Shown here: one piece after another, positions 13,771-26,979 of the stretch
Numbering within the stretch: the first letter of the stretch is position 1
How the letters are laid out: the number at the start of each line of letters is the position of its first letter
Assembly: GCA_951799425.1 (NCBI GenBank)
Contig: OX637394.1
Coordinates: 17,169,001 to 17,233,000, forward strand
From: Ilex aquifolium
Lineage: Eukaryota > Streptophyta > Magnoliopsida > Aquifoliales > Aquifoliaceae
Direction: 5' to 3'
DNA length: 64,000 nt
The notes under the pieces: generated by a model
The model's input: only the letters and a program-made list of their open reading frames with translations
What the model was told of the DNA's origin: nothing
The model's database searches: none
Made by a program: the position numbers and the translations under genes

Positions 13771-14562
13771 TCTATATAATAAAATAATTTACAATTCAAA
13801 TTTAAAAAATAAATAAAATAATTTTTACTTTTCGCGGTTCAGATCGCTTTAAATTTTACTTTAAAGTTAATCTAATGACTAATATTAACACCTTAAATTT
13901 AATAGGAAAAATAGGCTCTTAAGGGTGTATTTGAAATTACTTTTTAAAAGTACTTTTAAAAATTATTTCTCATAAATACTTTAAAAAAAAAAAAATAGTG
14001 TTTGAAACCGCCCCACCACTATCTCTACCACCACCACCACCATCACTACCGCCGTCGCCACTGCCACCGCCACCACCCCACCCCCACTGCCACCACCACC
14101 CATCACCACTACCACCGTCGCCACCGCCACCGCGACCAGCACCACCACTGTCGTCGTCCCCGACCACCACTGCCATCGTCATCGCCGCCACCATCGCCAT
14201 CGCCATCGTCGCCACCATCACCGTCGTCGCCGCCGTCACCACCACCATTGTCGCCGCCGCCGTCGCCGCCACCATCGCCACCACCACCACTACCACCGCC
14301 GCTGCCATCGTCGCTGTCGTCCCCACCATCGCCGCCGCCGTCGCCGTCGCCGCCACCACCACCACCACCACCACGGTTATTGCCACCCACCACAACCATC
14401 ACCGTCTCCTACCACCACTACCTCTCACCCCCACTACAACCGATGCTTAAATTCATTTATCTCTCCTCTATATTTGTGATTTGATTTTGAATATGAATAC
14501 AAATATGTTTATTATTTATCATTTTTTATTATTATGTACCTTCAGGCACAGACAATAACTAG
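13771..14562 (+). mobile_element. Non-autonomous Helitron with a triplet-repeat core
   Basis: Begins TCTATATAATAAAATAATT after an A and ends CTAG before a T, the A|T insertion pattern of Helitrons. A short hairpin (GTACC-TTCA-GGCAC) lies about 9 bases before the CTAG end. A closely similar copy occurs at 42745-43358, which fixes both ends. The middle (about 14016-14380) is a degenerate CCACCR/CGCCAC triplet repeat that creates long but meaningless Pro/His/Thr/Ala frames on both strands. There is no Rep/helicase, so it must rely on another element. Confidence 0.82.
14016..14380 (+). repeat. CCACCR-type triplet repeat inside the Helitron
   Basis: A run of CAC, CGC, CCA and ATC triplets, nearly all of CNC or CAN type, about 365 bp long. 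It is GC-rich against an AT-rich background. The homologous tract in the second copy (about 43000-43215) is shorter, so the tract length varies between copies. Confidence 0.85.
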
Positions 14563-15709: not shown

Positions 15710-15714
15710 GTTTT

Positions 15715-16818
15715 TGTGCGTACCGATTTTTGCACAATAGATGTATGAGTAGAAACAGAACACAGGTGAACTCGTGTTTACCTTAGATGTCAACGATTTT
15801 GTGGCAGAGAGGTAGGCGTGATGTAGCCAAAGAGAACTTGGTTGGTCGGAACGGCTGAACCCCGGGGTAGTTGGATCGTTCCCAGCGGACAGTAGGGTAT
15901 TCCGGCGTATCCTGGCATCAAAAAGAAGGGTTAGAAGGGTGCCGGAGTCTCTCCGGCGTATCCCCTCCGATGGTTAAGTCAGTTCTTTTCTAGAGAGAGA
16001 GAGAGAGAGAGGATCCTGAGAGCACTATTTCGTTTCAGTGGTTGTATATGCGTACCTGTGTTTCGTCTCTTAGAGGACTATTTATACATTTGTTGGTAGT
16101 CATCATTATAGGCTAGCGAGTAATAGGTTGTGCCAGTCATGGGGAAGCGTCCTCCCTCTTTTACAGGGATGATTGTAAGTTCTTAATTGCTCGGTGCTCC
16201 GAGCAATTAATGATCTCTTCCCCAGGCGCCCGAGCAATAAATGTTCTTGCTTCTATGTAGAGACATTAAATGCCTGACCTTTGAGCCATTTAATGCACCC
16301 CTTTCCGGGCTTCAGCAGTGATCATAGACGTCCCATCATTCTGGAGTTTATTAAATGATCCTCTGCACTGCCGCATAGTTGCTGGAACCTCTCTACAAGG
16401 TCAGGTACGACTCTGTTTATAACGCCACGTGTCCATACCCTCTTGGTTGTCAGCTCTGTTTACCCTGCTTTCCTGACTTGATGGGAAGGGCAGGCTAATG
16501 ACTCATCACCTGACTTGGTTTAATAGATTGAAGGATGTCGGCGCATCCCCTAAGACCGAGATGACGTGCTCCTATAAAGGAGCCTCTCAGATCGAGAATG
16601 GATAGGTCGTCATGGAGCCAGACGGAAGGCCTGGTGCCGAGGACGTGTGGTCGGGTCTCTTTATCCCGAGGAGCATTGGAACCGAGGACACGTGTCGCCG
16701 TCGGGTAAGTGGAGCGCCCTTGATGCCGAGGCCACGTGTCGTCTCCCTAACAATCGGTGGTACTCTGGTGCCGAGGCCACGTTTCGCCATCGTGAGGCTC
16801 TTAGAAAATGTCCCATCA
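15715..16818 (-). repeat. 3' LTR of the Gypsy/Tat element
   Basis: About 1104 bp, nearly identical to the LTR at 25845. Next to it on the inner side is the purine tract read on the minus strand as GGGCTGGGGGGCAGT, the usual plus-strand primer. Confidence 0.9.
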
Positions 16819-16865
16819 ACTGCCCCCCAGCCCTTAGCCTTCGTACGGCAGAGGACACGTGTCGT
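16641..16865 (+). repeat. ACGTG-core repeat set at the LTR edge
   Basis: Five imperfect units of the form GCCGAGG(A/C)CACGTGTCG spaced about 40-80 bp apart (near 16641, 16685, 16731, 16774 and 16852). The last lies just beyond the LTR. CACGTG/ACGTGTC is the G-box/ABRE core bound by plant bZIP and bHLH factors. The other LTR has an additional unit. Confidence 0.7.
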
Positions 16866-16986
16866 TGAGAAGGCGAAAAGGGCTCATCAACTCCATCACT
16901 TCTGCAGCCGTATTCCCCCCTTCGGATGTCGTGCGCATTAAATGCGCCCAACATCGTGCTTTGTGCGCAATGATGAGGACAGGTCC

Positions 16987-16994
16987 TATATAAA
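16987..16994 (+). promoter_or_regulatory. TATA-like box before the antisense frame
   Basis: TATATAAA on the plus strand, about 370 bp before the proposed ATG at 17360 and 170 bp inside the element from the LTR edge. It fits an internal promoter for the antisense frame. Distance, direction and consensus are the only evidence. Confidence 0.5.
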
Positions 16995-17359
16995 CATGAC
17001 TTAGTGCCTGCCTGCTCACCTTTTCGAAAACCAGTAATCCTCTTGGAGCCATTTCCGTTGGAGAATCGCCGGAGCCACTGCTATTGATCAGTTTTGCCTC
17101 CTCCATTGACGTTTTTCTGAAGACAAAGGCCATCCGTTGCCACTGCCTCCATCTTTCTTCCTTATTCCGGTGAGTTCTCTTGCACCATTTGCTTCTCTTT
17201 CTTATTTCTTCATTTTTCCGGCGACCAATCCCCTCCCCCTTCTTTGCCTGCGTCAAGAGTAGCTTCGCCCTCTCATCTTCCCGTCTGTCACTGTGTTTCC
17301 CATCGAGTCCCGTAAGTCCATCAACCAGGAACCCCTTAGGACCTCCCTTTCCCCGAGAT

Positions 17360-19764
17360 ATGCCCAAACGCAGTCCAAATAGGGTCGCCGAGGCAGACGA
17401 GGCTGGTCCCTCTCGGCCCCGGAAATATACCGTAGCGGGTCGGCAACAAATAGTGAATTTCAAAACCCATTACTCCATTCCCCCCGAGGTGACGGTAGAC
17501 GAGTTCAAGGCAGATAAGCATAAGGCCAATATCGGCACCGAAGTCGAGATGCCTTTTTATACGAAGGCCATCATGGAGGGGGGAATTAGGTTTCCTCTTC
17601 ATCCTCTCCTCCTTCGTTTCCTGCACCGATTTTGGCTCTTCCCCGAGCAATGTTGCCTCAACACCTTTAGGATCATCATGGGTGTCATTGCTTTGAACGA
17701 GCGTCTCAACCTCCACCTTGGTTTGGACGACATCCTCTTCTGTTATGCCTTGATGAGGGTCATGCCTCAACAGATGTACTATCTCAAGGCTCGGGACCCC
17801 ACCATGTACCTTGTCACCCACCTTCCGGATTCCGACAAAGGGTACAAGGATGACCTCCTCATCCTCGGCGGTCAATGGGAGAAAGGGCTCGGTCCAGAAT
17901 ATGCTGCTGACTTGTGGTGCCCCAAGCAGTGGAGGACTACGAGTACGTCGGCCCTCCTCTCATTTAAGTTTTCACTTTTCTCCGAATGTTCTACAACTGA
18001 TGACTATTTTTGTTGTTAGGGATCCCTGACGCCGAGACAGCGGCCCTTCCTCGGAATCAAGTGAACATTGGCGACATCAGCTTTGTGTGGAACTTCTTGG
18101 GAACCAAAGGCTTAGGCCGAGCTGCCCATCTCCTTCTTGACTACACTCCGGGGTACAAGAAGTTTACTCAAACACCTCACAACTTTGATCCCTCGGCGGA
18201 AGCGGAGCTTGCTGCGGCAAACTTAGAGAACGACCCCGACAGGGCCCCAGACGCCGAGGTAGAGGGAGTCGCCGAAGGCGAAGTTACTGAAGAAGAAAAC
18301 GACGAAGTCGTTGAGATCAGGAATCCTGTTGTTGCTTCCGACACTGAACCCAGCACATCAGTGAGGGAGACTTGGCCAAATTTCGAAGTTCTTCACAGCT
18401 TGAACATAGAGGACGCCCTCGAGGTCGCGATGTCTGGTTATCGCCTCGACCTGAATCTGATCAAAAAACGAGCTGCCCTTAAAGAGGGTCAGGGCCGAGG
18501 GTCTAGTTCAAACGAACCTCCTCCCCCACCACCTAGAAGGACTCCATCTGTTAATTTTCCCCCACCTCCTTCCCCTTCAAGGTCGTCGGGGCGTGGCCGA
18601 GGCTGCGAGAGAGATCCTCAACCAAAAGAGGAAAGAAGAGTAAAACAGAGACTCGACGGGGCTGGCCGGGGTAGGGGAACTCCAGCTCCCCCTTCAGCGT
18701 TATCAACTCCTGACATCACTCCGCCTCCTCCACCGGTGCCAACGACTCAAGCAGCGGAGTGGCGCCCTCGGGCTCGGGATCGTGAAGGTAGACCGATCCA
18801 AGTTTCTGACTCAATCATTAACTCTCCTCACGTGGCCTATGCCGTGAGTGAGACCCTCCTCTTTCACGCCGACATGGAGGAGCACCGGGCTAGGCCATTG
18901 AATCAACTCCTCCGCAACATCATTCAGAGCTCATTGGTGGTAAGTGCCCAAATCACCCTTTTTTTTTTATTCACTGGCTTCATTAACTTTGCTGACCTTT
19001 TAATTCTCTTGTAGACTGCCCAGCAAGTCTCGGCCATTGCCGATCGCTTCTATTCTCAGCGGGACGTGCTGCAGGATTTGGAGAAGCAAAAAAGCGAGGC
19101 TCAGGCAGCTCTTACATCAGCCAAAGAGGAAGTGGTGGTGAGAGACAAGACTTTGTCTTCTCAGGCCGCACAAATTGCTGAACTTCTCAAGGAGGCCGAG
19201 GTGGCGAGGCTGAAGGTCGACAAAACCAATGCAGCCCTCGCTGATGCAGAGAAGAAAATTACTGAATCAACCAAGCAACTCTCGGCATCGGAGGCTAAGG
19301 TGGCGGAGTCGGAACAGACTTGTTCCGCCCTTACCCAGGAACTGGACAAAGTCCGAGCTACATTGGAAGCTGCTAACAAGACTCGACAGGAGATCGTTGA
19401 TCAATGTGCCGACGACATTCTGGTAGCTTTTGAAGAACAGAAGAAAGAATTCTTTAAGCTCGGATGGGACGCGGCTTTGAGGGCGGCTGGGGTGCCTGAA
19501 GACTCTCCACTTTTCCAGGAGCATACCTACGTCCCCTCTTCCGAGATAGTGGCAGCCTCGGGGGAAAACGTTGTTGAAGGTGCGGAGAATGTCCAAGGGT
19601 CGAATGCGGCGCAAGCGGCTACAACTCTTCCTGCCCCTTCCTCTGCCTCGGTGCCTCCGACCGACGCCCCTGGCGCAGATACTCTATCTGCCAGCATTGA
19701 TGAGCTTTTCGGAGACATAGGGGGCAACATCGGTGGAGACGTGGCCGGGCCTCCTGCACAGTAG
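17360..19764 (+). CDS. Element-borne antisense reading frame with a coiled-coil C-terminus
   Basis: Runs opposite to gag-pol, between integrase and the 3' LTR. Three open segments (about 17360-17942, 18020-18939, 19015-19764) are separated by short stretches with GT...AG borders and matching phase, so two introns of about 75 bp are likely. The first segment has a conserved-looking globular part (IPPEVTVDEF, LHLGLDDILFCYALM, YKDDLLILGGQWE). The second is Pro- and RG-rich (PPPPPPRRTP, SSGRGRG). The third is a long Ala/Glu/Lys coiled coil. Antisense extra ORFs are known in Tat-type elements, but their function is not established. I assign none. It is unusually complete. Confidence 0.75.
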
Positions 19765-20209
19765 CCTAGGTTTTTCCTTCTGTCTTGTAATTTTTCATTT
19801 TCAATTTTTGTAGCCTGGGGGACGCAAAGCCCCTTTTTGAAATGAAAATTCGACTTTGTTTTCATATATCATGTCTCATTTCACCTTTTTAATGGACTTC
19901 GGGGCTACTGACTAGATGCCATACTCATGTAGGGGGACGTCGGGGTATCCTCCCCATCGGGGTTTGGTTTCCCGTTGTCGGGCGTTATTTGGGTGACAAA
20001 ACTGATATATATTTTTCACTCCGGTTAGCTTCATCTTTCTAGCTTGTTGGCTCGAGGAGATGGGGTCGGATTCCTTCGCCCTTCGGCTCCGAGGGATTGC
20101 GTCTTTCTTAAGAGTCGCGCTCCAGTTTCCTAGTTAGGAGGCAGGAGTCTGGGACTCCACCTCCGGGGTCATGCCCTTTTAGGATAGTATTTCCCACAAG
20201 ACTTGAATA

Positions 20210-23200
20210 TCAAAAGTAATATTTTTTCAAATTCATTACATTCCAAGGTCTCTTTACAACATTTCCTTCCACGTCTTTCAACTCATACGAGCCAGAGGCT
20301 CCTACCGATGTGACCTTGTATGGACCCTCCCAATTGGGCCCCAGCTTGCCATCCGCCGGATCCCGGGTGTTTGCCACCACCCTCCTGAGCACAAGATCAC
20401 CCACTCAGAATTCCCGGGACTTGACCCTCCTGTTGTAGAGCCTGGACACCCCTTCTTGGTATCGGGCCAGCTTTAAGGCGGCCATTTCTCTCTTTTCCTC
20501 CACGAGGTCTATGTCCAAGCCGAGTTGGTGGTCATTGTCCCCTGTGTCAAAGGCCAGCGTCCTTATGGTGGGAAGGCCTACTTCAAGGGGGATGACTGCC
20601 TCGACCCCGTAAGCGAGGGCATATGGCGTCTCCCCTGTTGATCTTCGAAGGGTAGTCCTGTATGCCCACAGGACGTTCAGGAGTTCTTCCACCCACTTTC
20701 CTTTGGCCCTTTCCAACCTTTTCTTGATACTATTGATGATGGCCTTGTTCGAGGATTCAGCCTGTCCATTCCCCTGAGGGTACGCGGGGGTGGAGTAATA
20801 GTTCCGGATCTTGAGGGGCTCACAAAAAGACTTGAAAGGCCCGCTGTTGAATTGGGTCCCGTTGTCTGATACGAGGGCACGGGGGACCCCAAATCTCGTC
20901 ACTATGTTTCTCCACACGAACTTCTTGGTGTCCACATCCCTGATGTGAGCTAGAGGCTCAGCCTCGACCCACTTTGTGAAGTAGTCAGTTCCCACTATCA
21001 AGAACCTCTTATTGTCGAGGGCCCTAGGGAGGGGCCCAACCAAGTCGAGTCTCCACTGGGCGAACGGCCAGGGACAAGTTAACGGGTGCAAGTCTCCAGC
21101 TGGCTGTCGAATAGCTGGGGCAAACCTTTGGCATTGATCGCATCTTTGAGCGTACGCTTGCGCGTCCCTCTGCATTCGCGGCCACCAGTACCCTTGCGAC
21201 ATGATGCGGTGTGCCATTGATCGTCCTCCTAAGTGACCCCCACATATGCCCTCATGCACCTCGTACAAAAGTGGTTCAACTTCGTCTTCACGGACGCAGA
21301 GCAGATACGGCCCGGAAAATGACTTTCGGTACAGCTTCTGATCTGGAGAAGCCCAGAACCTTGGAGCTTTTACCCTTATTTTCCTAGCCTCCTTTGGACA
21401 TTCTGGGAGTACCTCTGAGAGGAGGAACCCGAGTAGTGGATCCACCCAGCTAGGGGGCTTCCCCTCCTGTTGAATAACGGCCACACAAGGGACTGGATCT
21501 ATGGTGGGGCCAGGTAGGTATTCTACGGTGATCCTTCGCGTTGTGGTGGAGTCCAACGCCGAGGCCAGACATGCCAAGGCGTCGGCATGGGCGTTCTCGC
21601 CTCGGGGTACCTGCCTGATTTCCCTCTTCCCGAATTTGTGGAACAAAGTCACTGCTTCACGATAGTAGGCCTTCATCCTAGGGTCCCTTGCTTCGAATTC
21701 CCCGTTGACTTGATTAACCACTAGCATGGAGTCACAATGGACCGTCAATCCTGTTGCCCCTGCTGTGTCGGCGAGTTTGAGCCCAGAAATGAGAGCCTCA
21801 TATTCTGCTTCATTATTGGATGCTTTGAACCCTAGTCGGACAGCTTGCTCTGTGACTACTCCCTCCGGGGAGACTAGTAACGCCCCTATGCCGGAACCCC
21901 TGTTGTTGGAGGATCCGTCCACGAAAAGATTCCAGGAAGGTTCCTGGGATGGAGGCGAAGACTGTTTGACAGCGCCGGGGGGTTCTTCTTGGGGGAGAGG
22001 AGGCCTCTCCTTAGAGAACTCCGCTATGAAATCCGCCAATACTTGCCCCTTTATGGCAGTACGAGGTTCGTAACGGATATCGTGTTCCCCCATCTCCACC
22101 GCCCACTTGGCTATCCTCCCTGAAAGGTCGACTTTTCTCAAAATAGCCTTCAGAGGTTGATCTGTGAGGACCGTGATCGGATGTGCTTGGAAATAATGCC
22201 TTAACTTCCTCGCAGCCGTGATTAATGCCAAGGCCAACTTTTCCAATGGCAAGTATCTCGTCTCTGCATCCAACAAGGCTTTGCTTACATAGTATACTGG
22301 CTTCTGTTTACGTTCATGCTCATGAACCAATACCCCACTAACTACGAATTCTGATACTGCCAAATAGAGGAATAATGTTTCTCCTGGTGCCGGGACGGAC
22401 AGGGTTGGGAGAACCCTGAGGTACTCCTTGATCCCTTCGAGTACCTCTCTACATTCATTGTCCCAAGTTCCCTTCCTGGATCTCCTGATAGCATCGAAGA
22501 AGGGTTTACATTTGTCCGATGACCGAGAGATAAATCGGTTTAGCGCGGCCAGCATTCCAGTGAGTCTTTGGACTTCCCGAACCGTCCGGGGGCTTTGGAC
22601 GTCTAGGATTGCTTGTATCTGCTCCAGGTTGGCTTCGACCCCTCGCCGGCTTACTAAATACCCTAGGAACTTCCCGGATCCAACCCCAAAGACGCATTTC
22701 GCCTCGTTCAACTTTAAACCATACTCCCAAAGGGTGGAGAAGGTATCCTCTAGGTCCCTAATGTGGTCATCCTTCCTTCGGCTCTTTACTAGCATGTCGT
22801 CGACGTAAACTTCCATCGTATCCCCTATCTGTCTCTTGAACATTCGGTTCATAAGTCTCTGATATGTGGCCCCAGCATTCTTTAGGCCGAAAGGCCTGAC
22901 CTTGTAGCAGTAGACTCCCCTGGGAGTAATGAATGCGATCTTCTCTTGATCGGACAGATGGAGGGGAATCTGGTGGTAGCCAGCCCTGGCGTCCAGGAAG
23001 GCCATGCGTTGGTGTCCTGCGATGGCGTCCACCAGTTGGTCCACCTTCGGGAGGGGGAAGTCATCCTTCGGACAAGCTTTGTTCAGGTCTGTGAAGTCCA
23101 CGCATACGCGCCATTTTCCACCTTTTTTCTTTGCACAAACGGTATTGGATAGCCATTCCGGAAATTGAACTTCCCGGATGGCGTCGGCTTCCAGGAGCCT

Positions 23201-23473
23201 TTCCACCTCTTCATTTACAGCTTGGGCATGATGCGGGGCCGCACGTCGGGGCTTCTGCTTTACAGGTTTATGGGTGGGATCGACATGTAGCTTGTGAGTG
23301 ATAACGTTGGGGTTTATCCCCTTCATCTCCATGGAATCCCATGCAAATACGTCTGCATTTTTTCTCAAAAAATCAGTTATGTCCCTTTGTTCAACCAGGG
23401 ACATGGTGGAACCAATCAGGAAGTATCTTTCTTCGTGCCCTTCCACCAAAGGTACCTTCAGGAGATCCTCCAT
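20210..23473 (-). mobile_element. Pol part: RT, two RNase H domains, integrase
   Basis: In order: reverse transcriptase (KKKGGKWRVCVDFTDLN, then YVDDMLVKS around 22800), a Gypsy RNase H (KPVYYVSKALLDAETRY), a second archaeal-type RNase H (LFVDGSSNNRGSGIGALL...NNEAEYEALISGL), and integrase with its zinc-binding HHCC block (about 21120-21260) and a D,D,E core (DYFTKWVEAEPL, SDNGTQFNSG, GQAESSNKA). The C-terminal tail runs to about 20210. The second RNase H is a hallmark of the Tat lineage. The catalytic motifs are visible and the region looks nearly whole. Confidence 0.9.
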
Positions 23474-23533
23474 TGACCGGTCTGCCGGGTCGACCCTTGG
23501 CTCATCGACCCCGAGTCGCCCGGACTGTAATTG

Positions 23534-25795
23534 TTATTTATTTAGCAACTCCTCTGGGGGCCGTTCCTTTTCCTTGGAGGCGACCCCCGCCTTCACAACT
23601 GAGTAGAAACATGTTTTGGCTGATGCCTGATCCCCGCGGATCTCTCTTACTCCCTCCGGGATAGGAAACTTCAACTTCTGGTAGTAGGTGGAATGCACCG
23701 CCCCTAGTGCATGTAGCCAGGCGCCTCCCATGATTATGTTGTAAGGCGAATCAGAGTCTATCACCACGAATTTTGTGTTCGTCGTAACTGGCCATGTGAC
23801 GACCGGTAGCGTGATTTTTCCCGAGGGCAGAGTATATGAGCCATTAAACCCGACGAGGGGCGTGTCCACCTTGACGAGATCCTGGGGACCAAGTCCCATA
23901 CGCTTCAGGACCTCGTAGTACATCACCTCGGAGGAACTCCCGGAATCCACCAAGACTCTCCTAACATCAAAGTTGCCAATTTTCAGGGTGAGGATCAAGG
24001 CATCCTCGTGAGGGAGGACAACGCCCGTCAAGTCGGCGTTGGAGAATGTAATATCCTCGTCACTTGTCCGGACCCTCTTACTAAGCCGGTCCCCTTTCTC
24101 TTCATCCACCTTTCTCGTGAAAGTCACCCTTTTCAAATCAGACCTGAGGGTGTTGGACGTCGGACGATCCGTGGGGCAGACGTGGATGACGTCAATGACA
24201 TTGCCTTGGACATTTGTCTGTCCATCAGCGACACGGGCCTCCCTTGGAGCCGCTTCGTCAATGTATTCCTTCAGGTACTCCTCTTGCACCAACTTTTCCA
24301 GGAAAGACTTGTAGACCCTACAATCCTCGGTGAGATGTCCCATATCTTGGTGGTACGAACACCTTACCTTCTGGTTTCTGGTGGATGGATCACCCAGCAT
24401 TTTAGGCGGCCATTTAAAGAAGGGCTCCATCTTCATCCTGTTGAGTAGCCTGTAGATAGGTTCCTTGAACACGGTCTGGATTCCTTTGAAGGAGCCACCG
24501 GACGAGGGCATTAATCCCTTCCGAGGGAGTTCTCCTTTCTCACTTTCCTTCTTCCTTGGGGCCAAGAGTTTTCCTTTGCCCCCCAACGTTTCGTCCTCTA
24601 CCCTGGAGTATTTATTGATTCGGGCCATCAACTCTCCCATGCCCGCAGGCGTCTTCTTCGTCAAGGATCTGTAGAGGTTGGTGTCCCGTGAGAGGCCAAG
24701 TCTGAAGGAGGCAGCTGCCATGACCTCAGAACAACCCTCCACTTCGTTTACTTCCTCCCAGTAGCGGGTGGCATACTGGCAGAGCGTCTCTCCTTCCCTT
24801 CGTCTTAAAGTCAACAATGACCCGACATCTTTTGGGCGCTTGCTCCCCGTAATGAATCGAGCCAAGAATTGCTTGGTTAACTCCTTCCAAGATCCTATAC
24901 TGCTGGGTGGAAGGGTTTCAAACCATTTCATGGCGGAGTCGCCCAGACTCATCGAGAACACCCGACACAATAATCGGTGGTCCGAGTGATAGAGAGACAT
25001 CATTTGCTTATACTGCCTTAGATGAGCTTCAGGGTCTCATCGCCCGTCATAAATTTTGAACCTTGGTACAGCGAATTTCTTCGACACTTCCATGTCCGCG
25101 ATACCCTTAGTGAATGGTGACTGAATGACCTCGTCATCCGTATCGTCTTTTAACGCGGCTTTGTCCCTTCTGGTGGAGTTCAGCTGCATCCGGAGATCCC
25201 CTTGGCGTCGGGATCTTATCTCTTGCTCATCCCGGCGCCTGACGGGACATCCGGACCTATTGTTCCTCACTAAGAGGGTAGACCCCTCCTCGGATTCCTC
25301 CACCCCCCTCACCCGGAGAGTTTCCGACGGAGGTTATTCCACTCCAGTGACCTCGTCTTCTTGGCTGGGACCCCCGGGAGCTCTCCCCTGGCCCTCGGGC
25401 GCTTCGGAGCCCTGGAATTGTTTGATCCGCCGCTGAGGCGATTTCTCAGATCTTGAGCCCCCACTCCCTTGACGGGGGGTTCGTGTGATCGCCGTTGATC
25501 CTCCGCTGGAGAGTGTGAACTCATTGAGCCGGTTTAGGACATTGACGTTGTCCTCTTCCAACTGCCTCAAGCAATCCCCGAACTGGTCTTCAATCACTTC
25601 GGTAAGTTGCCGTGCCGACGGGGCTGACTTCCCAGATCCAATACCCATGTTGGTTTGGTAGGTCCGCCCTTTGGAGTGAACGGAACACTCCCTATTCACG
25701 CTTTCCAAGTGATCCTTCGTTCTTGACATGGAGGGGGCTGTTAACTCAACGTTCTTTTGTTGAGTGCTCTTTCCCTTTTGACGAGTATTCACCAT
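23534..25795 (-). mobile_element. Gag-protease part of the Gypsy/Tat element
   Basis: Starts MVNTRQKGK. The central block with LGDSAMKWFETLPP, LARFITGSK and YATRYWEEV is the retrotransposon Gag capsid-like domain. A YHQDMGHLTEDCR motif follows in the nucleocapsid position. The aspartic protease signature LVDSGSSSEVMY comes next. The reading is mostly open with a small number of breaks. It encodes the particle protein and the enzyme that processes the polyprotein. Confidence 0.85.
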
Positions 25796-25823
25796 GGTCA
25801 CTGATCCTCGGGGAGTATGATCT

Positions 25824-25841
25824 TTCCCACAGACGGCGCCA
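25824..25841 (-). promoter_or_regulatory. Gypsy primer-binding site
   Basis: TGGCGCCGTCTGTGGGAA, three bases after the LTR end on the minus strand. TGGCGCC starts are typical of plant Tat/Athila-type Gypsy elements. I did not assign the exact tRNA. Confidence 0.75.
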
Positions 25842-25844
25842 GAT

Positions 25845-26974
25845 TGTGCGTACCGATTTTTGCACAATAGATGTATGAGTAGAAACAGAACACATGTGAA
25901 CTCGTGTTTACCTTGGATGTCAACGATTTTGTGGCAGAGAGGTAGGCGTGATGTAGCCAAAGAAAACTTGGTTGGTCGGAACGGCTCAACCCCGGGGTAG
26001 TTGGATTGTTCCCAGCGGACAATAGGGTATTCCGGCGTATCCTGGCATCAAAAAGAAGGGTGCCGGAGTCTCTCCGACGTATCCCCTCCGATGGTTAAGT
26101 CAGTTCTTTTCTAGAGAGAGAGGATCCTGAGAGCACTATTTCGTTTCAGTGGTTGTATATGCGTACTTGTGTTTCGTCTCTTAGAGGACTATTTATACCT
26201 TTGTTAGTAGTCATCATTATAGGCTAGCGAGTAATAGGCTGTGCTAGTCATGGGGAAGCGCCCTCCCTCTTTTACAGGATGATTGTAAGTTCTTAATTGC
26301 TCGGCGCTCCGAGCAATTAATGATCTCTTCCCCAAGCGCCCGAGTAATAAATGTTCTTGCTTCTATGTAGAGACATTAAATGCCTGACCTTTGAGCCATT
26401 TAATGCACCCCTTTCCGGGCTTCAGCAGTGATCATAGACGTCCCATCATTCTGGAGTTTATTAAATGATCCTCTGCACTGCCGCATAGTTGCTGGAACCT
26501 CTCTGCAAGGTCAGGTACGGCTCTGTTTATAACGCCACATGTCCATACCCTCTTGGTTGTCAGCTCTGTTTACCCTGCTTTCCTGACTTGATGGGAAGGG
26601 CAGGCTAATGACTCATCACCTGACTTGGTTTAATAGATTGAAGGATGTCGGCGCATCCCCTAAGACCGAGATGACGTGCTCCTATAAAGGAGCCTCTCGG
26701 ACCGAGAATGGATAGGTCGTCATGGAGCCAGACGGAAGGCCTGGTGCCGAGGACGCGTGGTCGGGTCTCTTTATCCCGAGGAGCATTGGAATCGAGGACA
26801 CGTGGCGTGCTGGAGAAACACTGGGGTTCCAGTAGTGCCAAGGACACGTGTCGCCGTCGGGTAAGTGGAGTGCCCTTGATGCCGAGGCCACTTGTCGTCT
26901 CCCTAACAATCGGTGGTACTCTGGTGCCGAGGCCACGTGTCGCCATCGTGAGGCTCTTACAAAATGTCCCATCA
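25845..26974 (-). repeat. 5' LTR of the Gypsy/Tat element
   Basis: About 1130 bp, TG...CA ends. On the minus strand TATAAATAG (26189-26197) is a good core-promoter box, leaving about 340 bp of R-U5 before the primer site. The U3 part contains a set of imperfect repeats around an ACGTG core (about 26745-26945). Confidence 0.9.
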
Positions 26975-26979
26975 GTTTT

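Follow-up and report, generated by a model that had tools for sequence, protein, structure and literature searches.

A probable spliced accessory gene opposite to gag-pol in a Tat LTR retrotransposon of Ilex aquifolium

The locus and its host element

The analyzed stretch of DNA (hereafter the window) comprises 64,000 nt of the forward strand of Ilex aquifolium (assembly GCA_951799425.1, contig OX637394.1, 17169001-17233000). It hosts on its minus strand a complete Ty3/gypsy LTR retrotransposon of the Tat type, and between pol and the 3' LTR of this element lies a predicted gene on the plus strand, consisting of three coding exons with a joined product of 750 aa (Table 1). Antisense orientation and placement between pol and 3' LTR are those of the additional ORFs of Retand-type elements. 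The three open segments, compatible in phase and bordered by GT-AG, were confirmed where the original prediction had placed them.

Table 1. Positions of the annotated features in the window. dN/dS values are pairwise means (Nei-Gojobori) across the main set of sequences described in the text.
Feature	Position	Strand	Remarks	dN/dS
Complete Tat-type LTR element	15715-26974	minus
Target-site duplication GTTTT, left	15710-15714		flanks of the LTR comparison
3' LTR	15715-16818	minus	compared with the 5' LTR
Region from pol to 3' LTR	16819-20404		3,586 bp; contains the antisense gene
TATA box TATATAAAC	16987-16995	plus	ranks second in length among the invariant runs of the 540 bp upstream; 20 of 20 sequences
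Longest upstream invariant run TCCGGTGAGTT	17166-17176		20 of 20 sequences; contains a splice donor
Probable 5'UTR intron	17170-17328	plus	donor GGTGAGTT, acceptor AACCAG; pairing inferred
Coding exon 1	17360-17942	plus	remote TRP28-like domain; ends in phase 1	0.14
Donor 1 stretch GAGTACGTCG	17941-17950
Intron 1	17943-18019	plus	77 nt, phase 1, GTACGT...TTAG
Coding exon 2	18020-18939	plus	acidic part, Pro/RG-rich part with basic patch, conserved end	0.18
Intron 2	18940-19014	plus	75 nt, phase 0, GTAAGT...TGTAG
Coding exon 3	19015-19764	plus	including stop TAG; coiled coil	0.13
pol: RT, RNase H, second RNase H (RVT_3), integrase	20405-23533	minus	Pfam	0.12
In-frame stop of gag-pol	23534-23536		between protease and RT
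gag capsid region and protease	23537-25036	minus	Pfam
In-frame stop of gag-pol	25037-25039
In-frame stop of gag-pol	25334-25336
5' LTR	25845-26974	minus	compared with the 3' LTR
Target-site duplication GTTTT, right	26975-26979		flanks of the LTR comparison

The domains of the element follow the order LTR, gag, protease, RT, RNase H, and integrase that is expected for Ty3/gypsy Tat elements, with Retrotrans_gag scoring 43 bits, over the Pfam cut-off, and the protease matches staying below theirs. A second, archaeal-type RNase H domain is the hallmark of the Tat lineage, and pol carries both RT_RNaseH (residues 384-481) and RVT_3 (residues 538-654). The originally proposed Tat membership fits this domain set, an assignment made by Pfam domain content. 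Between the two LTRs we determined a K2P distance of 0.0254 (1085 sites; 21 transitions, 6 transversions; 66 gap columns excluded). At substitution rates for LTR dating of 1.3e-8 and about 7e-9 per site per year, this would correspond to an element age of about 1-2 million years, consistent with the one to two million years estimated before.

Three in-frame stops were recorded in the gag-pol frame of the window, two of them within gag. The one between protease and RT is also found in two further copies (L017 and L033), while two others (L020 and L022) have no stop at this position but align poorly there; it may be natural. At 13935-14484, the sequence is of low complexity, with long Pro/His/Thr-rich open frames overlapping one another in several reading frames, and is probably a simple repeat.

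Codon selection, splice sites, and promoter of the antisense gene

Copies of the gene were collected from the same genome by a DNA search with exon 1 and intron 1 as query, in which the 40 places scored out of 447 candidates were 86-100% identical. The main set consisted of the window sequence and 19 of the 20 best matches, with L026 being dropped as a near duplicate of L025. Deleted or rearranged sequences were omitted, leaving 20 sequences for exon 1, 18 for exon 2, 17 for exon 3, and 14 for pol. Pooled dN/dS values (95% codon bootstrap) amounted to 0.147 (0.100-0.202) for exon 1, 0.187 (0.150-0.228) for exon 2, 0.139 (0.106-0.181) for exon 3, and 0.122 (0.106-0.140) for pol. Hence, the comparison across genomic copies that had been suggested along with the original prediction yielded ratios that are not neutral. 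Since exons 2 and 3 as well as pol were absent from the query used for selecting the copies, this result is not due to copy choice. Read from these ratios, all three exons are under purifying selection, exons 1 and 3 being about as constrained as pol and exon 2 somewhat less. Four of the five other frames over the exons gave dN/dS values of 1.15-2.12. The mirror frame on the opposite strand, with 0.21-0.26, was rejected as a wobble echo and is closed by 5-14 stops per copy.

Identity and indel counts were calculated on 20 copies including L026, with indels scored against the window and shared indels counted once per copy. Among copies covered to more than 80%, mean identity to the window was 0.913 for exon 1, 0.876 for exon 2, and 0.816 for exon 3, compared with 0.863 for intron 1, 0.832 for intron 2, 0.840 for the upstream region, and 0.812 for the spacer. 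The raw mean of exon 3 lies below that of intron 2 because exon 3 is replaced in L025 and L026 (0.451 each); in the other 16 copies it ranges from 0.837 to 0.904. The share of indels whose length is not a multiple of three was 3/8 for exon 1, 12/32 for exon 2, and 29/43 for exon 3, as against 19/19 for intron 1 and 113/126 for the upstream region. Of the 29 frame-breaking indels in exon 3, 28 are found in L025 and L026, and the last one is a 2,143-bp insertion in L027.

These data bear on the idea that the antisense transcript acts as RNA, i.e., as a dsRNA or silencing trigger or as a decoy, with the open frame being incidental. Retrotransposon antisense transcripts can indeed form dsRNA and limit retrotransposition (PMC7264820, PMC12786077), and a conserved TATA box supports transcription only. 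Selection acts on codons, however, with dN/dS of 0.13-0.19 in the coding frame, and exons 1 and 2 are conserved above the introns, the upstream region, and the spacer. We consider an RNA function with an incidental frame very unlikely, and a non-coding antisense RNA as the whole story was rejected on the dN/dS values.

The description of the frame as intact-looking holds for the window copy but not for the other compared ones: all three exons are present, in frame, and stop-free in the window only (1 of 20 sequences). The 19 decayed sequences consequently cannot make the full protein now, and with a single intact copy among 20, the observed selection records past activity rather than present-day expression. 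The start ATG is kept in 19 of 20 sequences (AGG in L015). In two copies, L020 and L022, the stretch from exon 2 to pol is missing, with differing breakpoints.

Splice sites were examined in the main set and, additionally, in nine hand-picked further copies (L040-L048), of which six share about 70% aa identity with the window and three 86-88%; two of the latter three were picked for their long open frame. In the main set, the donor of intron 1 is GT in all 20 sequences and its acceptor AG in 19 (AC in L016). For intron 2, the donor is GT in 18 of 20 and the acceptor AG in 16 of 20, with L020, L022, and L025 being deleted or rearranged there and L014 having AC. Among the nine further copies, both donors are GT throughout (9 of 9 each) and both acceptors AG in 8 of 9, L040 being the sole miss at both. 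Most second donors read GTAAGT or GTGAGT, and the usual acceptors are TAG or CAG, variation that a splice site tolerates. The length of intron 1 is a multiple of three in only 3 of 20 sequences.

In the six distant copies, the introns are 45-59% identical to those of the window and vary in length (85-98 nt for the first, 70-91 nt for the second). Exon 1 of these copies is 68-73% identical to the window on DNA level, exon 2 57-60%, and exon 3 36-60%; with exons 2 and 3 at this low level, it is exon 1 and the splice sites that carry the contrast to the introns there. Conserved GT-AG borders, matching phases, and drifting intron bodies together are what is expected of spliceosomal introns at the sequence level. 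As a separate observation, the stretch GAGTACGTCG around donor 1 is identical in 25 of 29 sequences (exceptions L022, L028, L031, and L040), also beyond the splice consensus at +7 and +8. In L046 and L047, intron 1 measures 78 nt and contains no stop, leaving one continuous frame from exon 1 to exon 2 even in unspliced RNA.

The latter two copies would suit a different reading, in which unspliced RNA is translated into the products of three short, independent ORFs or into the exon 1 protein alone, the GT-AG borders being a coincidence or seldom used. Both window introns end in TAG, which lies in the frame of the preceding exon and forms part of the acceptor; in the window, unspliced reading of exon 1 thus ends at the acceptor of intron 1 and would give a clean TRP28-only product. 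Conservation is also unusually high at the start of intron 1. On the other hand, exon 3 of the window copy contains no methionine and the first one in exon 2 is preceded by 136 codons, yet both exons are selected, and the splice sites were kept although the introns drifted. The methionine argument is not general: exon 3 is free of methionine in 13 of 20 sequences (the window counted) plus the fragment of L020, while a methionine occurs inside it in 6 of 20 sequences of the main set and in 3 of 8 copies checked by eye. Based on methionine absence, selection, and splice-site retention, we rejected separate unspliced ORFs as the main product and regard this reading as very unlikely; intron retention may provide a second isoform.

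Intronless copies were absent among the 40 places scored out of 133 candidates for junction 1 and the 40 out of 97 for junction 2, and a pattern search across the spliced junction 1 returned none. Such an outcome fits an intron that lies on the other strand and is never lost from the genomic RNA; it is no direct proof of splicing. In the search with junction 2, four matches covered query bases 60-158 and so extended some 20 bases over the junction; two further ones began at query bases 71 and 72. As the end of exon 2 is separate and located upstream wherever inspected, we rejected these matches as cases of intron loss and read them as chance extension into the intron tail.

Upstream of the coding region, 174 of 540 columns are invariant in the 20 sequences. 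The upstream TATA-like box assigned to the gene before is present and identical in 20 of 20 sequences. The acceptor AG of the putative 5'UTR intron (17327-17328) is kept in 19 of 20, as judged by eye, with L033 differing. Taken together, the conserved TATA box and donor point to a probable own promoter and 5'UTR intron.

Overall, codon selection, splice-site conservation, the behavior of intron length, and the conserved TATA box all speak for the intron-bearing antisense gene proposed at the outset, making a real spliced gene very likely as opposed to a chance reading frame. Judged from the sequence comparisons, it is highly probable that this gene is a spliced accessory gene of the Tat LTR retrotransposon, encoded on the strand opposite to gag-pol.

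Relation to TRP28 and related genes in the genome

The protein-family search suggested for the first segment gave a divided result. Exon 1 of the window yielded no match to the Pfam family TRP28 (PF04195; cut-off 26.2 bits), and from an alignment of eight sequences (A1) one member matches this family with an E-value of 0.076. Two other loci of the genome, L009 and L010, match PF04195 at 49.5 and 47.6 bits. Comparison of A1 with the alignment of these two sequences (A2) by hhalign resulted in a probability of 97.9 and an E-value of 4.2e-13 over 152 columns, the E-value holding for one comparison and A2 being a shallow profile of two sequences. At profile level, homology to TRP28 was accordingly found, and exon 1 is best described as a remote TRP28 relative below the Pfam cut-off.

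For the remainder of the protein, exon 3 produced Pfam matches of coiled-coil type, all under the cut-off, and translations showed a Pro/RG-rich linker whose basic patch is kept between subfamilies. Solved structures related to the protein were not found up to an E-value of 1. A single-sequence AlphaFold model reached a pLDDT of 38.7 and was not used further.

A search of the genome with the exon 1 protein led to 5043 candidate places, of which 150 were scored; all 150 match, down to 70% identity. Within these, 28 share an identical exon 1 score of 393.1 bits at 86% identity together with an open frame of 271 aa, pointing to near-identical copies from a recent burst. The more distant copies L041-L045 served as a replicate of the selection analysis (L040 excluded; L043 and L044 each carrying a stop within the analyzed portion of exon 3) and gave dN/dS values of 0.08 for exon 1 and 0.11 for the initial 115 codons of exon 3, counted from QQVS, with dS being saturated between this group and the closer one.

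L009, the best PF04195 match of the genome, allows a comparison of gene architecture, with intron borders set by eye. Its TRP28 exon is followed by a phase-1 intron shortly past the motif PKAW; next comes another phase-1 intron in the middle, and the last one, of phase 0, immediately precedes the coiled coil. All three are present in L010 as well. Intron 1 of the window lies a few codons past PKQW, matching the placement in L009, while the middle intron has no counterpart in the window gene. Between L009 and L010, dN and dS are 0.093 and 0.746 for exon 1 and 0.120 and 0.439 for the coiled-coil exon. A pol sequence 52% identical to that of the window (L051) follows on the opposite strand about 3.8 kb past the coiled-coil frame, making L009 part of another Tat-like element. 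From these two elements of one genome, the intron places look ancestral. The L009 element further contains two antisense TRP28-like genes in tandem, the second of which has a phase-1 donor right after the domain (one locus; acceptor by eye), and, at about L049:3810-4442, an array of 54-55 bp tandem repeats.

This distribution is relevant to the question of whether a host gene was recently captured by the element and kept by chance. A TATA box, introns, and a strand of its own give the window gene the look of a nuclear gene. Against a recent capture, all 150 scored of the 5043 candidate places encode exon 1, down to 70% identity; pol sequence lies within 6.8 kb in the same relative orientation in 18 of 20 fetched copies (not in L025 and L026) and, at about 81% identity, on the opposite strand at the one distant locus checked (L042/L050); and a homologous gene resides in another Tat-like element. 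We regard recent capture as extremely unlikely, whereas an ancient capture of a host gene may have taken place. In one scan of one collection of viral contigs, no relatives of exon 1 were found.

Known antisense genes and proposed mode of action

Introns of the Ogre and EVADE elements lie in the sense transcript; those of the window, in contrast, belong to a gene on the other strand and are so retained in the genomic RNA. Ogre and EVADE have been named as notable exceptions among plant LTR elements in having functional introns, which give rise to subgenomic RNAs via alternative splicing (PMC12786077). Antisense TRP28 ORFs as such are already known: they occur in 97% of recently active Retand clusters, are predicted to bind DNA, and have no known function (Vicient 2025, PMC11963269). 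Like them, the window gene is located antisense between pol and 3' LTR, in a region whose 3,586 bp compare with 2,933-6,566 bp in that survey, and shares the TRP28-type head, which in the Retand ORFs is often joined by an SMC-like second part (PMC11963269). It differs from the ORFs as surveyed by being multi-exonic with conserved introns and by a head below the TRP28 cut-off; the survey relied on an ORF finder with ORFs of at least 600 bp, and the word "intron" is absent from its main text (PMC11963269). Antisense ORFs are common in Retand elements (PMC11963269), but their status is unsettled; the window case gives codon-level support for a gene.

The maize element Grande carries with gene23 another antisense gene between pol and 3' LTR, which is reported to be transcribed from its own promoter and to have a nuclear product (Gomez-Orte et al. 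2013, as reviewed in PMC7264820); for the window gene, the likeness in promoter consists of the conserved TATA box only. The same paper urges a search for antisense and spliced transcripts (PMC7264820). Both sources draw the analogy to antisense genes of HTLV type, namely HBZ and APH-2, likewise antisense regulatory genes in a retroelement (PMC11963269, PMC7264820). The HTLV antisense promoter is situated in the 3' LTR (PMC7264820), as opposed to the TATA box of the window, which is found in the internal region. Within titles, abstract openings, and selected texts, conserved introns in such antisense genes were not found described, although Steinbauerova 2011 and Gomez-Orte 2013 may mention them.

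In the proposed course of events, transcription by RNA polymerase II would begin some 30 bp past the TATA box. Removal of three introns, one of them in the 5'UTR, would then give the message for a protein of 750 aa with TRP28-like head, Pro/RG-rich linker, and coiled-coil tail. Since the genomic RNA corresponds to the other strand and has none of these splice signals, the introns would persist through retrotransposition, and the protein could consequently be made only from a DNA copy in the nucleus. In respect to the predicted DNA binding of TRP28, the Pro/RG-rich linker with its basic patch, and the coiled-coil-like tail, we tentatively propose an oligomeric nuclear protein that binds DNA of the element, chromatin, or RNA and either regulates expression or counters silencing, a role we hold to be possible rather than probable.

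A more general form of this proposal, for which the chances appear evenly balanced, is that a multi-exonic structure is ancestral to the antisense genes of TRP28 type in Tat elements, one intron lying just after TRP28 in phase 1 and another just before the coiled coil in phase 0. Being antisense to the genomic RNA, these introns would have been retained, and the protein would be made only in the nucleus from integrated or extrachromosomal DNA. If true, the very layout of the gene would naturally confine an accessory protein to the DNA stage. Codon selection near that of pol, conserved introns, and a conserved core promoter argue for gene status, provide an exact exon model, and suggest that surveys of uninterrupted ORFs would split and mis-annotate such genes. 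Intron retention could, in addition, yield shorter forms of the protein that do not include the coiled coil.
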